Assembly: GCA_937892105.1 (NCBI GenBank)
Contig: CALAUZ010000318.1
Span: 1-16,509, forward strand
DNA: 16,509 nt
Direction of reading: 5' to 3'
Source: an uncultured Fretibacterium sp.
GTDB lineage: Bacteria > Synergistota > Synergistia > Synergistales > Aminobacteriaceae
The first letter of the stretch is position 1; the number at the start of each line of letters is the position of its first letter. Of this stretch, positions 7,167-16,509 are shown in pieces. A program made the position numbers and the translations under genes. The notes beneath the pieces were generated by a model that saw nothing but the letters and a program-made list of their open reading frames with translations, had not been told where the DNA came from and searched no databases.

Positions 7167-8927
7167 ATGAGTATTTACGACAGAGTGAAAAATGACATTG
7201 CTCAAGAATATTATGTGAACAATTACCCGAATGATGGACAGAGATTTATTGCGTGGTATCTCAGGAATATTCACGGGCTTGATGCTGTAGAGACGAAAGA
7301 GTGTGTTACCGATGGAGCTGGAGACAAGCAGATTGACGCTGTATATGTGAATGACCAGGAGGAAACTGTATATATCCTTCAGGGCAAATTTTATTCTGAG
7401 GGCAGGGTTAACTCGGAGCCATTGCGAGAAGTCCTATCTTCGTGGATACAGATAAAAGATCTCCAGCACCTTCAGGAAAGCGCAAACGATAAGCTGCGGG
7501 CAAAAATAAACGAAATATCTTCAGCACTTGATGACGGCTACGATATATGCTTTGAACTCATTACAGCGTCGGAATTTACAGAGGCGGCAAGGTCAGACCT
7601 TGAGAGGTTCAGCGCGGAACTTTCGGAAAGCAGTACCCTTAGCGCAACCCTTATGCTCATTGACAGTGATACCCTTGAAGCCAGGTACAGAGAAGCACTT
7701 AACGCTAACAGACCGTACATTAACCACAGCTTCAGGCTTGAGGCAGGCAGGTACATGGACATAAACATAGACGGAACAAGGGCGGTTATTGCTGCTGTAC
7801 CATTGAGGGAGTGCCTGAATATTCCAGGTATTAAGGACGGTTCACTGTTCAGGAAGAACGTAAGGCAGTCTTTGGGTTCAGGCAACAAAGTAAACAAGGA
7901 CATTGCACGCACTCTCAGGAACAAGCCAGGAGAATTTTTCTTCCTCCACAATGGAATAACGGCTATATGCTCATCGCTCGAAATCAACGGGGACATAATC
8001 ACCGTCAAAGATCTAAATGTGGTGAACGGCTGCCAGTCCCTCACTACGATATATAGCAGCAGTGAAGCTGTGAAGAATGCTGGTGAGGCATATATCATGT
8101 TCAGATTCTACGAGATAACCAGCAATGAACGCGCTGATGTCATAAGCATATCGACAAACTCACAGAGCGCGGTGAAAGCTAGGGATTTACGTAGCAATGA
8201 TAAATACGTTCTGGCCATGAAGAAATCATATGAGCAGCATTTCACTGATGGATACTTCATCACGAAACGCGGGGAGAAAGTGAATACAGCACGCTACAAT
8301 ACAGCCCATACCGCAGATCTTACTTCACTGGGCAAGCAGTTAATAGCTTGGCATTCACAGAGGCCGACAATCTCATATAGTGAGAGCAAGATATTCGACA
8401 AATATTTTGAGCAGCTCTTTCACCGTGAATACAGCCCTGAAAATATTTACTCACTCAATGAAATATATTCGGCAGTCTATAAGAACTGGAAGCCCGAAAA
8501 CTCAAATCCTCTCGGTCTCAATGAGGCACTTCTGGCAATGAAAGCATATGCGGCGTATCATCATTTCTTTGCGGTGTCAGTAATATTCTGTGAGATTAAC
8601 AACATGCCCGATGCTGTTCCTGACCCTTCGGAAGCATTGAGGCTCATGAATAACGCAGGACTTTCTGAGACAGTAATAGGGATTGCCGGACAGTGCTTCA
8701 ACATGGCCTTTGAGCTTGCTGTTTCAGAGGCTTCACAGAATAACAAGGTATTCAGTACATCGAACTGGATAAAAGCTAAAGCATCACTGAAGGACATTCG
8801 CGCGGCAGTAAAGCAGTACATCATGATGTCGAAACTTACACCTGCCAGCAAACAGGTATTAGACACCCTCAACACTCACCTGAAGATGTCCCGTGATGAT
8901 TTCTCGCCAAGATGGGCGGCAGATTAA
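7167..8927 (+). CDS. AIPR family protein, putative phage-defence nuclease
   Basis: A protein of 586 residues matching the abortive-infection phage-resistance (AIPR) family. The N-terminus carries a restriction-endonuclease-like pattern: Glu14, then GDKQID with Asp53/Asp57, then ILQGKFY with Gln72-x-Lys74. This fits a PD-(D/E)XK-type active site with Gln in the usual acidic position. The family's core signatures follow: FLHNGITAICSS (about 258-269) and VVNGCQSLTT (about 284-293). Known members are linked to abortive infection or occur as effectors of larger defence systems; here the gene is solitary. The start is ATG 7167. AGGAGG (7146-7151) is 15 nt upstream, which is long, so a non-ATG start nearer to it (an in-frame ATT at 7158) is possible. 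One base separates its stop from the symporter start, suggesting co-transcription. Confidence 0.85.
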   Translation: MSIYDRVKNDIAQEYYVNNYPNDGQRFIAWYLRNIHGLDAVETKECVTDGAGDKQIDAVYVNDQEETVYILQGKFYSEGRVNSEPLREVLSSWIQIKDLQHLQESANDKLRAKINEISSALDDGYDICFELITASEFTEAARSDLERFSAELSESSTLSATLMLIDSDTLEARYREALNANRPYINHSFRLEAGRYMDINIDGTRAVIAAVPLRECLNIPGIKDGSLFRKNVRQSLGSGNKVNKDIARTLRNKPGEFFFLHNGITAICSSLEINGDIITVKDLNVVNGCQSLTTIYSSSEAVKNAGEAYIMFRFYEITSNERADVISISTNSQSAVKARDLRSNDKYVLAMKKSYEQHFTDGYFITKRGEKVNTARYNTAHTADLTSLGKQLIAWHSQRPTISYSESKIFDKYFEQLFHREYSPENIYSLNEIYSAVYKNWKPENSNPLGLNEALLAMKAYAAYHHFFAVSVIFCEINNMPDAVPDPSEALRLMNNAGLSETVIGIAGQCFNMAFELAVSEASQNNKVFSTSNWIKAKASLKDIRAAVKQYIMMSKLTPASKQVLDTLNTHLKMSRDDFSPRWAAD

Positions 8928-14892: not shown

Positions 14893-15750
14893 ATGACTGT
14901 TAAGAAATGCCTTTTTCCTGTAGCTGGATTAGGCACAAGGTTTCTGCCGGTAACAAAGGAAATTGCGAAGGAAATGTTGCCACTGGTGAACCGTCCAATA
15001 ATATCGTACGGTGTTGAAGAGGCTTTATCGTCAGGCTGTGAAGACATAGTAATGATTACCGGTAGGACAAAGCGTTCAATCGAGAATTACTTTGACCGTT
15101 CATTTGAGCTTGAGGACATACTGAAAAGGCGCGGGAAACTGGAGCTTTACTACAAGATGATACATATTTCAGAGATGGCTGAAGTGATGTACATTCGCCA
15201 GCGTGAGCCATTAGGATTAGGCCATGCGGTATTATGCGGAGAACCGGTATGCAAGGGTGAATATTTCGGAGTGATACTTCCAGACGATGTATTCATAAAC
15301 CGAGAACCAGTATTATCCCAGCTGATAAAGGTACATGACAGGCTAGGCGGAAGTGTTGTAGCACTTGAACATGTCAAGGACAAAGATGTTTCGCGGTACG
15401 GTATTGCGGCAGGCGAGGAATTTGAACCAGGAATATTCAGGATCAGCAACATGGTGGAGAAGCCCAAACTTTCGGAAGCCCCTTCACGTTATGCGATTAT
15501 GGGACGTTATGTACTGTCGCCGGAGATATTCCCGTTGTTGCACACACAGCAGGCAGGAGCTGGAGGAGAGATACAGCTTACGGACGCGATACGGGAGCTG
15601 TCGAAGTCAGAGCCTGTATGGGGAGTTGTGTATGAGGGCAGGCGTTTTGACTGTGGGACGCAGAAAGGGTGGCTTAGTGCGAACATACAGCTTGCGCTGG
15701 AGGACGATGAACTGCGAGATGTCGTGATGGAGATTGTGAAGGACAACTGA
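14893..15750 (+). CDS. galU: UTP-glucose-1-phosphate uridylyltransferase GalU
   Basis: Cytosolic nucleotidyltransferase making UDP-glucose from UTP and glucose-1-phosphate for surface polysaccharides and glycolipids. At 285 residues it has the usual length. The nucleotide-binding start PVAGLGTRFLPVTKEIAKEM (9-28) and the downstream MVEKP, GGEIQLTDAI and FDCGTQKGWL motifs are those of bacterial GalU. The ATG at 14893 has AGGAG 7 nt upstream; an in-frame ATG at 14863 lies within glmM. It is the second gene of the glmM-galU operon and is followed by a strong terminator. A related glucose-1-phosphate thymidylyltransferase is less likely given the VEKP/FDCGTQKGWL pattern. Confidence 0.96.
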   Translation: MTVKKCLFPVAGLGTRFLPVTKEIAKEMLPLVNRPIISYGVEEALSSGCEDIVMITGRTKRSIENYFDRSFELEDILKRRGKLELYYKMIHISEMAEVMYIRQREPLGLGHAVLCGEPVCKGEYFGVILPDDVFINREPVLSQLIKVHDRLGGSVVALEHVKDKDVSRYGIAAGEEFEPGIFRISNMVEKPKLSEAPSRYAIMGRYVLSPEIFPLLHTQQAGAGGEIQLTDAIRELSKSEPVWGVVYEGRRFDCGTQKGWLSANIQLALEDDELRDVVMEIVKDN

Positions 15751-15771
15751 TTTTTGAGTGCAAAGAATATT

Positions 15772-15804
15772 CCCTTCTGGTGTGATAACTGGGAGGGTTT
15801 TTTT
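15772..15804 (+). terminator. rho-independent terminator of the glmM-galU operon
   Basis: CCCTTCT (15772-15778) can pair with GGGAGGG (15791-15797) using two G-U pairs, and is followed by seven T (15798-15804). It starts 21 bases after the galU stop. Confidence 0.85.
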
Positions 15805-15829
15805 GTGCGTTATTTTGCTGTGATAGAAT
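15801..15829 (+). promoter_or_regulatory. candidate promoter of the small amphipathic-peptide gene
   Basis: TGATAGAAT (15821-15829) has the TGn of an extended -10 box directly before TAGAAT. The -35 region (TTTTGT, 15801-15806, 17 bp away) is poor and overlaps the preceding terminator's T run. A start near 15836 would give a leader of about 107 nt before the ATG at 15943. Confidence 0.42.
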
Positions 15830-15839
15830 TATGGCTAGT

Positions 15840-15938
15840 CCGTGATATCGTATCTCACGGATCAGGGAAGCCCCCGATAATCCAAAGCGGGGGGTTGTCG
15901 TAAGAGGAAAACTTCTCCCCGCTTAGAATGGGGGTGAG
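15840..15938 (+). promoter_or_regulatory. structured leader with competing stems around a strong ribosome site
   Basis: CCGTGA (15840-15845) pairs with TCACGG (15855-15860). Further on, AAGCGGGG (15885-15892) pairs perfectly over 8 bp with CCCCGCTT (15917-15924). The same G run (15889-15894) could pair instead with CCCCC (15871-15875). The ribosome site GGGGGTGA (15930-15937) could also be covered by either C run. The folds are mutually exclusive, which suggests translation of the peptide is controlled by RNA structure. The stems are seen; regulation is inferred. Confidence 0.45.
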
Positions 15939-15942
15939 AGTC

Positions 15943-16029
15943 ATGAGGGACTTCATAAAACTCCTCGAGGCAGTCGCTAAGGTCATCAACGCGATAGCCC
16001 ACCTCATTAACTCGATAAAGAAGAAGTAG
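15943..16029 (+). CDS. 28-residue amphipathic cationic peptide, possible type I toxin-like (TisB-like design)
   Basis: A short ORF encodes a peptide beginning MRDFIKLLEA and ending NSIKKK. Hydrophobic residues F4, L8, V11, I15, I18, I22 and I25 repeat at 3-4 spacing, with L7, V14 and L21 beside them. Polar residues R2, K6, E9, K13, N16, H20, N23 and K27 form the opposite face. This describes one amphipathic helix with a lysine tail, like membrane-active peptides such as TisB (29 residues) or phenol-soluble modulins. No sequence family is recognised. The ATG at 15943 has GGGGGTGA 5 nt upstream, which matches seven of eight bases complementary to the anti-Shine-Dalgarno. An in-frame ATG at 15928 sits before that site and is less likely. 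It has its own candidate promoter and structured leader, and it is isolated between a terminator and the CDC48-like gene. Confidence 0.6.
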   Translation: MRDFIKLLEAVAKVINAIAHLINSIKKK

Positions 16030-16032
16030 CGT

Positions 16033-16078
16033 CTCAATCGTTGTTTGTTTTTGCTGGTTGAGGCTCACACCCTCAATC
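16033..16078 (+). repeat. two competing hairpins just after the peptide stop codon
   Basis: CTCAATC (16033-16039) can pair with GGTTGAG (16056-16062). GGTTGAGG (16056-16063) can pair instead with CCTCAATC (16071-16078). CTCAATC thus occurs twice around one complementary segment, so only one hairpin can form at a time. No T run follows, so a simple terminator is not supported. Confidence 0.5.
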
Positions 16079-16159
16079 GGCAATCAAACATTTCATCATG
16101 TCCGTAGCTTCCCCGTACGCTTTTATTATAGCGCCTCACAGATTGAAGGGATAATCCAC

Positions 16160-16509
16160 ATGCAAAAAATATTCAGAGTTCAGGAAGCCTACTCAGGGGA
16201 CGCGATGAAAGGACTCGCCCGCATACATCCTGATGACATGGCCGCGCTAAACCTCACAGACGGCGACCTAATCAGCATCACAGGACGCAGAACAACTCCC
16301 GCAAGAATCCGAACAGGAGACCGCGAAACAGGCCGGGACATAATTCAGATTGACGGACTAATACGCGAAAACGCAGGGACATCACTCGATGAAAATATTA
16401 CCCTTGAGACAAATATCACTCACCATTTCGCCGGAAGCGTAACCCTCCAGCCACTAGGCGACGTTAAGCTCTCCTCCAAAGAGAAGGACGAGACCTACAT
16501 TCTCTCGCT
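16160..16509 (+). CDS. CDC48/VCP-like AAA+ ATPase, N-terminal domain (partial, runs off the window)
   Basis: The first 116 residues of a longer protein. They match the N-domain of CDC48-type AAA ATPases: an N-terminal double-psi beta barrel with ARIHPDDMAALNLTDGDLIS (20-39) and DIIQIDGLIRENAGTSLDEN (65-84), followed by the start of the second N-subdomain (SVTLQP at 100-105). CDC48 homologues unfold substrate proteins in hexameric rings; in bacteria their substrates are mostly unknown. The Walker motifs would lie beyond 16509. The start ATG at 16160 has GAAGGGA about 9 nt upstream. A dyad CGCT/AGCG with TATTAT (16118-16133) lies just upstream as a possible promoter element. Confidence 0.85.
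   Translation, partial: MQKIFRVQEAYSGDAMKGLARIHPDDMAALNLTDGDLISITGRRTTPARIRTGDRETGRDIIQIDGLIRENAGTSLDENITLETNITHHFAGSVTLQPLGDVKLSSKEKDETYILS

Follow-up and report, generated by a model that had tools for sequence, protein, structure and literature searches.

A folded RNA-peptide cassette of Synergistaceae with paired RNA ends and a facing opposite-strand promoter motif

TisB is a short membrane-active peptide encoded behind a structured leader, and the antisense gene of the TisB/IstR pair lies upstream in divergent orientation, its RNA binding a standby site. AapA peptides comprise approximately 30 aa, and in hok mRNA the 5' and 3' ends are paired. In aapA mRNAs, a 5'-3' interaction covers the SD and silences the message, and 3' cleavage activates it; end-clamped toxin mRNAs are known type I logic (PMC6733600). 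The antitoxin geometries of type I systems have been reviewed, including the convergent RNAs of Fst/Ldr (par), which share direct repeats and a terminator (PMC4147584). According to a 2025 paper, which proposes a candidate from cyanobacteria, no phyla other than Proteobacteria, Firmicutes, and Tenericutes had until then been known to have type I systems (PMC12390103). No report of a type I system from Synergistota was among the literature matches listed, with subscription journals and preprints outside the scope of that search.

This study investigated a small-peptide locus in the window, the whole 16,509-nucleotide stretch of DNA analyzed, from an uncultured Fretibacterium sp. The locus is almost certainly a structured, translated, and widely kept RNA-peptide cassette, and we consider it reasonably probable that this Synergistaceae locus is chromosomal and type I toxin-antitoxin-like, with an end clamp resembling those of hok and AapA and not of the TisB type. 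Similar to aapA/IsoA of Helicobacter, the cassette combines a small peptide with a 5'-3' long-distance interaction, which was perfect in 43 of 50 copies, and with stems predicted to cover the SD (PMC6733600). However, the AapA 3' end covers the SD directly, whereas that of the cassette pairs with a linker approximately 60 nt upstream of the SD, and a 3' anti-SD acting directly on the SD was not found in the cassette. With hok/Sok the cassette shares the pairing of a 5' segment with a 3' segment of the mRNA and, putatively, an antisense RNA (PMC4147584, PMC6733600); the small toxic peptide of hok/Sok has its counterpart in a small, presumably toxic one. It differs from hok/Sok in that its antisense promoter motif stands at the 3' side, its clamp uses a 3' hairpin loop (a pseudoknot), and its peptides match no family. 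No consistent mok-like leader frame was identified; an out-of-frame reading frame overlapping the start was present in 22 of 39 copies, and none in the window. The genes of txpA/RatA and bsrG/SR4 in B. subtilis are convergent, with the toxin mRNA overlapped at its 3' end, and resemble the putative antisense layout of the cassette, but TxpA has 59 aa, the peptides of the cassette match no such family, and the portion of the review used here mentions no such end clamp (PMC4147584). Direct repeats of 12 or more, the Fst/Ldr feature, were not found in 15700-16200; shorter ones may be present.

The preliminary description of the locus had proposed a type I toxin-like layout resembling TisB and belonging to no known family. 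The layout was supported, with the toxin role itself a matter of interpretation, and Rfam, Pfam, NCBIfam, and PADLOC offered no fitting family. The TisB model was not supported: a short peptide behind a structured leader is common to both, but the promoter motif of the cassette is at the 3' side and faces inward instead of lying upstream and divergent, the ends are clamped as in hok and AapA, the mean hydrophobicity of the window peptide is low (0.10, Eisenberg scale), and 37 peptides had no toxin-family match in Pfam, which presumably includes a TisB model.

Extent of the cassette and collection of its copies

The cassette sits between galU and a gene encoding a CDC48-like AAA ATPase and spans approximately 310 bp (15821-16130). 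Its features and immediate neighbors are as follows.

15772-15797: terminator-like hairpin of galU
15821-15829, plus strand: putative extended -10 promoter of the peptide mRNA, TGATAGAAT (profile TGNTARAAT over the copies)
15839-15861, plus strand: 5' hairpin TCCGTGA..TCACGGA (91.9% of cells paired; two-sided changes in 7/7 pairs)
15865-15871, plus strand: 5' linker GGGAAGC, first half of the clamp (98.9% paired; two-sided changes in 5/7 pairs)
15871-15875, plus strand: C-tract 1, predicted to cover the ribosome site or to pair with G-tract 1
15875-15900, plus strand: pseudoknot stem 1, CGATAATCC (15875-15883) with GGGTTGTCG (15892-15900)
15885-15924, plus strand: stem 2, AAGCGGGG (15885-15892) with CCCCGCTT (15917-15924), pseudoknotted with stem 1
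15930-15938, plus strand: ribosome-binding site (SD), GGGGGTGAG
15943-16029, plus strand: open reading frame of the 28-aa amphipathic peptide MRDFIKLLEAVAKVINAIAHLINSIKKK
16043-16089, plus strand: post-stop hairpin, with its inner stem at 16053-16081
16100-16118, plus strand: 3' hairpin GTCCG-loop-CGTAC, with one stem mismatch in the window
16107-16113, plus strand: loop GCTTCCC of the 3' hairpin, second half of the clamp
16125-16130, minus strand: -10 TATAAT of a putative antisense promoter facing the gene; in the window, the TG extension is missing its T
16160-16507, plus strand: CDC48-like AAA ATPase gene (PF02359, E 2e-20), cut by the window end and outside the unit

BLAST of the region against 80 loci identified homologues in eight (L001, L003, L006, L008, L011, L012, L015 with two copies, and L016). 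A covariance model built on the leader of 10 copies (R1) matched 17 of the 24 genomes reached through loci and 28 of 81 family genomes (48 hits). A wider model of 40 leaders (R2) matched 32 of 180 class genomes at E <= 0.01, two of them marginally (G018, G051), and none of the 39 Bacillota genomes used as a specificity control. A set of 40 copies, the window copy among them, was obtained with a rule that demanded TGNTA[ACG]AAT, GGGGTG, and ATTATA together, and those letters are consequently selected in this set. Fourteen copies read from covariance-model or protein hits were added without the rule (xL106, xL108, xL111b, xL116, xL120, xL125, xL126, xL158, xL159, xL160, and xL192-xL195); xL116 replaced a wrongly cut form of the same copy, and the total was 53 copies from the Synergistaceae-related genomes examined. 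Left out were L103 and L109 (degenerate), L101 (reading frame truncated where the contig ends), L157 (3' part not seen), and L196 (partial). The named carriers were mostly ruminant-gut MAGs, and the window GalU shared 91% identity with that of three MAGs, of which two were goat-reticulum Synergistaceae and the third was named uncultured Fretibacterium.

Comparison of the copies revealed, at the level of sequence, a discrete cassette that codes for a predicted amphipathic peptide (24-37 aa). Its folded mRNA covaries and pairs the 5' linker with the loop of the 3' hairpin, and a near-invariant extended -10 lies on the opposite strand, immediately beyond that hairpin. The locus had been described as self-contained and as ending at 16078. 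Its autonomy was supported, and its own promoter motif and 3' end recur across copies; the proposed end was too short, as the 3' hairpin and the opposite-strand -10 belong to the unit. The segment 15826-16080 folded at -84.4 kcal/mol, and none of 200 dinucleotide shuffles was as stable (z -2.77). The Rfam covariance models had no match in the window at E up to 1.

Folding of the RNA and pairing of its ends

A consensus sigma-70 scan of 15600-16300 returned no promoter (0.9 expected by chance). The candidate promoter of the preliminary description was therefore upheld only in the form of a conserved extended -10 that no clear -35 accompanies; counting the cassette's own copies, TGNTARAAT occurred 16 times in 545 kb of related loci. 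The RNA would start at approximately 15836, giving a leader of approximately 107 nt with competing GC-rich stems, in line with the earlier estimate of approximately 100 nt. Structure was examined in 38 aligned copies (alignment A5). In the whole structure, which was drawn from the window row and is thereby favored over slid versions, 88.4% of cells were paired, compared with 81.8% with shuffled 3' partners (0 of 500 shuffles reached the observed value) and 39-50% with slid partners. Two-sided changes occurred in 28 of its 49 pairs.

The best-kept RNA feature, absent from the preliminary description, is the clamp between the mRNA ends, in which the linker at 15865-15871 pairs with the loop at 16107-16113. 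Both halves vary together, as in GGGAAGC/GCTTCCC, GGATGAC/GTCATCC, GGAGAGC/GCTCTCC, and GGAAGGT/ACCTTCC and, among others, GGAGGAC/GTCCTCC, GGATAGC/GCTATCC, and GGAGAAC/GTTCTCC. With the 3' hairpin chosen blind to the linker, both parts were present in 50 of 53 copies, and the clamp was perfect (7/7) in 43 and at least 6/7 in 46 of these; shuffled partners gave 10.2 perfect clamps on average and 21 at most (5000 shuffles). This was the second attempt, confined to the 62 nt that precede ATTATA and run with Watson-Crick stems and an ATTATA offset larger than before; the first blind search had mostly picked a wrong hairpin and yielded 12 perfect clamps in 47 copies (191 of 329 cells, shuffle maximum 190). 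Seven copies were imperfect, namely L086, L097, and L111 (6/7), xL126 and xL194 (5), and L095 and xL116, whose score of 3 reflects a wrongly picked hairpin. The three copies without both parts were L092 (3' part lost), xL158 (no linker), and the window, where the stem mismatch prevented a hairpin call; the window loop nevertheless pairs with the linker at 7/7. The 3' hairpin itself was paired in 84.7% of cells, with two-sided changes in two of five pairs. The loop pairs with the linker and not with 15930-15938, and the clamp thus does not cover the SD. Judged on the copies compared, the covariation of the structure and of the clamp is beyond chance.

Within the leader, stem 1 was paired in 90.4% of cells (a two-sided change in one of six pairs, one-sided in four) and stem 2 in 86.9% (two-sided changes in two of eight), and together they are modeled as an H-type pseudoknot. 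A best-score search recovered both stems in roughly 31-34 of 52 copies, counted by reading, and in most of the remaining copies picked stem 2 first. The order of tracts is C1-G1-C2-SD. The columns of C-tract 1 are mostly invariant or nearly so, and the tract is a predicted SD partner in many copies; GGGGTG is invariant in the 38 aligned copies by construction, having been required at extraction. The model agrees with the earlier proposal that leader stems can cover the ribosome site: C2 or C1 can cover the site, and G1 can free it of C2 by taking C2. The mean SD pairing in nested folding of 36 copies was 0.83 at full length, 0.85 after 3' trimming, and 0.80 for the leader alone, figures that weigh little because G-rich sites pair easily. 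Simple activation by 3' trimming was not supported by the nested-fold model, in which the SD is still paired after removal of the 3' hairpin.

The hairpins proposed after the stop codon were upheld for the inner stem, which was paired in 92.3% of cells with two-sided changes in 7 of 11 pairs, and less so for the outer stem, which was paired in 60.4%. A T run follows the post-stop hairpin in L113, L121, L122, and the second L090 copy, and some mRNAs may therefore stop at this point, short of the clamp loop.

The peptide and the opposite-strand promoter motif

The preliminary description had named missing synonymous bias among relatives as evidence against its 28-residue frame. In eight close copies, the in-frame pN/pS was 0.17, against 1.35 and 2.33 for the two alternative frames; the values were 0.40 compared with 0.83 and 1.57 over 22 short copies and 0.36 compared with 0.86 and 2.03 over 13 long copies, the copy pairs in these figures not being independent. 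The frame at 15943-16029 was thus confirmed and, on these substitution patterns, is under purifying selection beyond chance, which suggests that the amphipathic peptide is translated. With 28 aa and frame-specific selection, it has the size of a short (<60 aa) type I toxin. The 37 peptides that align (alignment A6) comprise a short type of 24-29 aa (24 rows) and a long type of 32-37 aa (13 rows) carrying a 7-residue insert relative to the short one. An aligning amphipathic reading frame is hence retained by 37 of the 40 rule-extracted copies; outside the alignment are L086, whose frameshifted peptide has 8 aa, L092, which has lost the 3' part and reads through, and L097, in which no start codon was found. 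Of 38 rows, 36 (all but L105 and L123) had an 18-residue amphipathic moment greater than that of 95% of their composition shuffles. The window peptide has no clear transmembrane segment by prediction, and its hydrophobicity is low for a transmembrane toxin.

Database searches with the peptides identified no toxin family in Pfam-A (37 peptides; best E 0.014, chance level), no convincing family in NCBIfam (best E 0.0049, one member, a secretion-needle model) or PHROGs (best E 0.00087, the unnamed phrog_3399, 3 of 37 members), and no match in PADLOC. Membership in an Rfam, Pfam, NCBIfam, or PADLOC family was accordingly rejected, and the cassette apparently represents a family of gut bacteria that has so far not been described. 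Two copies lie next to each other in five genomes (G007, G015, G021, G050, and G058) and pair a long with a short peptide in four cases and a long-like peptide (27 aa) with a short one in G058. The leaders of these adjacent copies differ (L084, L087, L090, L110, and the long-like and short copies of L111), suggesting either that two paralogues are being maintained or that the peptides form a two-peptide system.

The opposite-strand motif was examined in the 52 copies in which ATTATA was found. ATTATA.CA, which reads TGNTATAAT on the minus strand, was present in 49; the exceptions were the window (GCG), xL158 (TTA), and xL116, in which an earlier ATTATA had been taken and the true one is ATTATAGCA. 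Although selection was only on ATTATA, the TG extension had its T in 38 and its G in all of 39 rows, with C22 T11 A4 G2 at the free N. The motif is rare: across both strands of 24 related loci (545,438 bases), it occurred 15 times. Eight of these occurrences are followed by the 3' hairpin of the cassette itself, and reading assigned it another two (L001 and the L011 remnant), so that approximately 10 belong to copies and the true background is about 5. All nine rule-extracted copies not standing before cdc48 keep the motif, and in seven of them the nearest downstream reading frame is on the opposite strand; the motif thus serves the cassette and not the neighbor. The facing motif is a perfect consensus, whereas TGNTARAAT is further from consensus, and a stronger facing promoter with a weaker mRNA promoter would be the balance expected of antitoxin and toxin. 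No minus-strand terminator was consistent across copies, in which only scattered candidates were found.

In the type I toxin-antitoxin-like reading, the 28-residue helical peptide is probably the toxin. Its mRNA would be made from the weaker TGNTARAAT promoter and be born silent, because the C-tracts would cover the ribosome site and the ends would be clamped. An antisense RNA starting near 16118 would read back over the 3' hairpin, whose loop would offer it a natural docking site, and would block or destroy any opened mRNA. If the antisense RNA failed or the mRNA were processed, the leader could switch through the pseudoknot, with G-tract 1 taking C-tract 2; the ribosome site would then be free, and the peptide would act on the cell's own membrane. 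Several points speak against this reading, namely the low hydrophobicity, the lack of a consistent antisense terminator, the SD that is paired despite trimming, the clamp that lies off the SD unlike in AapA, the window antisense -10 without TG, and the few two-sided changes in the pseudoknot stems.

The cassette would operate in the manner of the known systems but is set apart from them by the linker-to-loop clamp, the pseudoknot leader, the extended -10 facing from the 3' side, the peptides without a known family, and the phylum. Whether all of these amount to a new class of peptide-coding riboregulator in Synergistota, combining the pseudoknot leader, the clamp, the facing antisense promoter, an architecture that outlasts peptide divergence, and an adjacent long/short two-peptide toxin, is a tentative and rather doubtful proposition. 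If the type I reading is correct, the locus would extend the type I kind to a further phylum, provide a strongly covarying 5'-3' clamp for studying the silence of toxin mRNAs, and supply an architecture rule (clamp plus facing extended -10) that finds such loci where peptide homology fails.

The strong amphipathy, the long and short peptide types of the adjacent pairs, and the low mean hydrophobicity, which suits a soluble amphipathic peptide, would equally fit a riboregulated peptide acting outside its producer in a bacteriocin-like or surfactant-like manner, with the clamp and the antisense RNA timing its synthesis. We consider this unlikely, since the nearest neighboring reading frames vary by site and, by reading of their sequences, include no exporter or immunity genes, and a facing antisense promoter is typical of self-toxins.

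A distant branch bears on whether the RNA or the peptide is the functional product. R2 matched G119 (E 1.8e-5), a genome outside the 81-genome family set, whose peptide of 40 aa had 16 relatives in the protein collection, one named uncultured Cloacibacillus, a genus that NCBI places in Synergistaceae; among the 180 class genomes, this peptide had four places in G119 and one in G120. BLASTP of the G119 peptide against the window peptide returned no alignment at E up to 100, and by eye the C-terminal halves of both have the same amphipathic pattern. The copies L192-L195 have a GGAAGGG linker, CCCTTCC in the 3' hairpin (CCCTTTC in L194, whose hairpin was mispicked in the clamp test and scored 5/7), and a kept ATTATA.CA; the partial L196 differs (ATTATATATCA). 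Judging from these copies, the distant branch retains the clamp and facing promoter layout with another peptide. Such a clamp, kept while the peptide diverges beyond alignment, is what a functional structured RNA acting as a regulator, with the peptide secondary, would display. This explanation is quite improbable in view of the amphipathic frame aligning in 37 of 40 copies and its purifying selection; moreover, the linker letters vary freely as long as pairing is kept, and the linker can therefore hardly be a trans-target seed.

Genomic context of the copies

Thirty of the 40 rule-extracted copies stand upstream of cdc48, with ATTATA mostly 30-50 nt ahead of the predicted start; clustering placed 27 of them there, and reading placed the window, L093, and L111. 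Nine are elsewhere, and in L121 the contig ends. Copies also recur at a second site, flanked by a periplasmic-adaptor-like gene and a radical-SAM-like one, both named by reading sequences. The frequent position just upstream of a widespread cdc48-like gene would be expected of a leader peptide or attenuator controlling that gene, a role we regard as highly improbable because seven of the nine copies elsewhere have their nearest downstream reading frame on the opposite strand, the cassette retains its own promoter and 3' end, and cdc48 is present in 71 of 81 family genomes but the cassette in only 28. Among the best 30 of the 71 cdc48 loci, 22 had a cassette (19 by script; L163, L187, and L191 by reading), six had none within about 420 nt upstream, one held a remnant, and L183 was not parsed, its contig carrying copy L122. 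As a general role, control of cdc48 was refuted by the copies standing elsewhere, and read-through into cdc48 could still exist.

All that the remnant, L185 (G060), retains is the -10 on the left, the start of the 5' part, and ATTATAACA on the right. Its reading frame and most of the RNA body were lost in a natural, internal deletion, and the flanks of the site match G046, which carries a full copy. The patchy spread, the doubled copies, the frameshifted L086, and the deleted L185 are, as far as sequence can tell, compatible with a dispensable selfish or toxic locus. That the cassette is instead a small MITE-like mobile element, its ends being inverted repeats and not promoters, can hardly be correct: copies are multiple and both ends read TGNTA.AAT inward, but the ends agree only at promoter-consensus positions, the copies are mostly at two recurrent sites, and limited phage and plasmid searches at the DNA and peptide levels, together with one exact viral pattern, returned no matches.

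Elsewhere in the window, the reading frame at 7167-8924 (plus strand) matched the AIPR (abortive-infection phage-resistance) family PF10592 (E 1.9e-34), with a weak Mrr_cat match, and is a candidate phage-defense gene unrelated to the peptide cassette.
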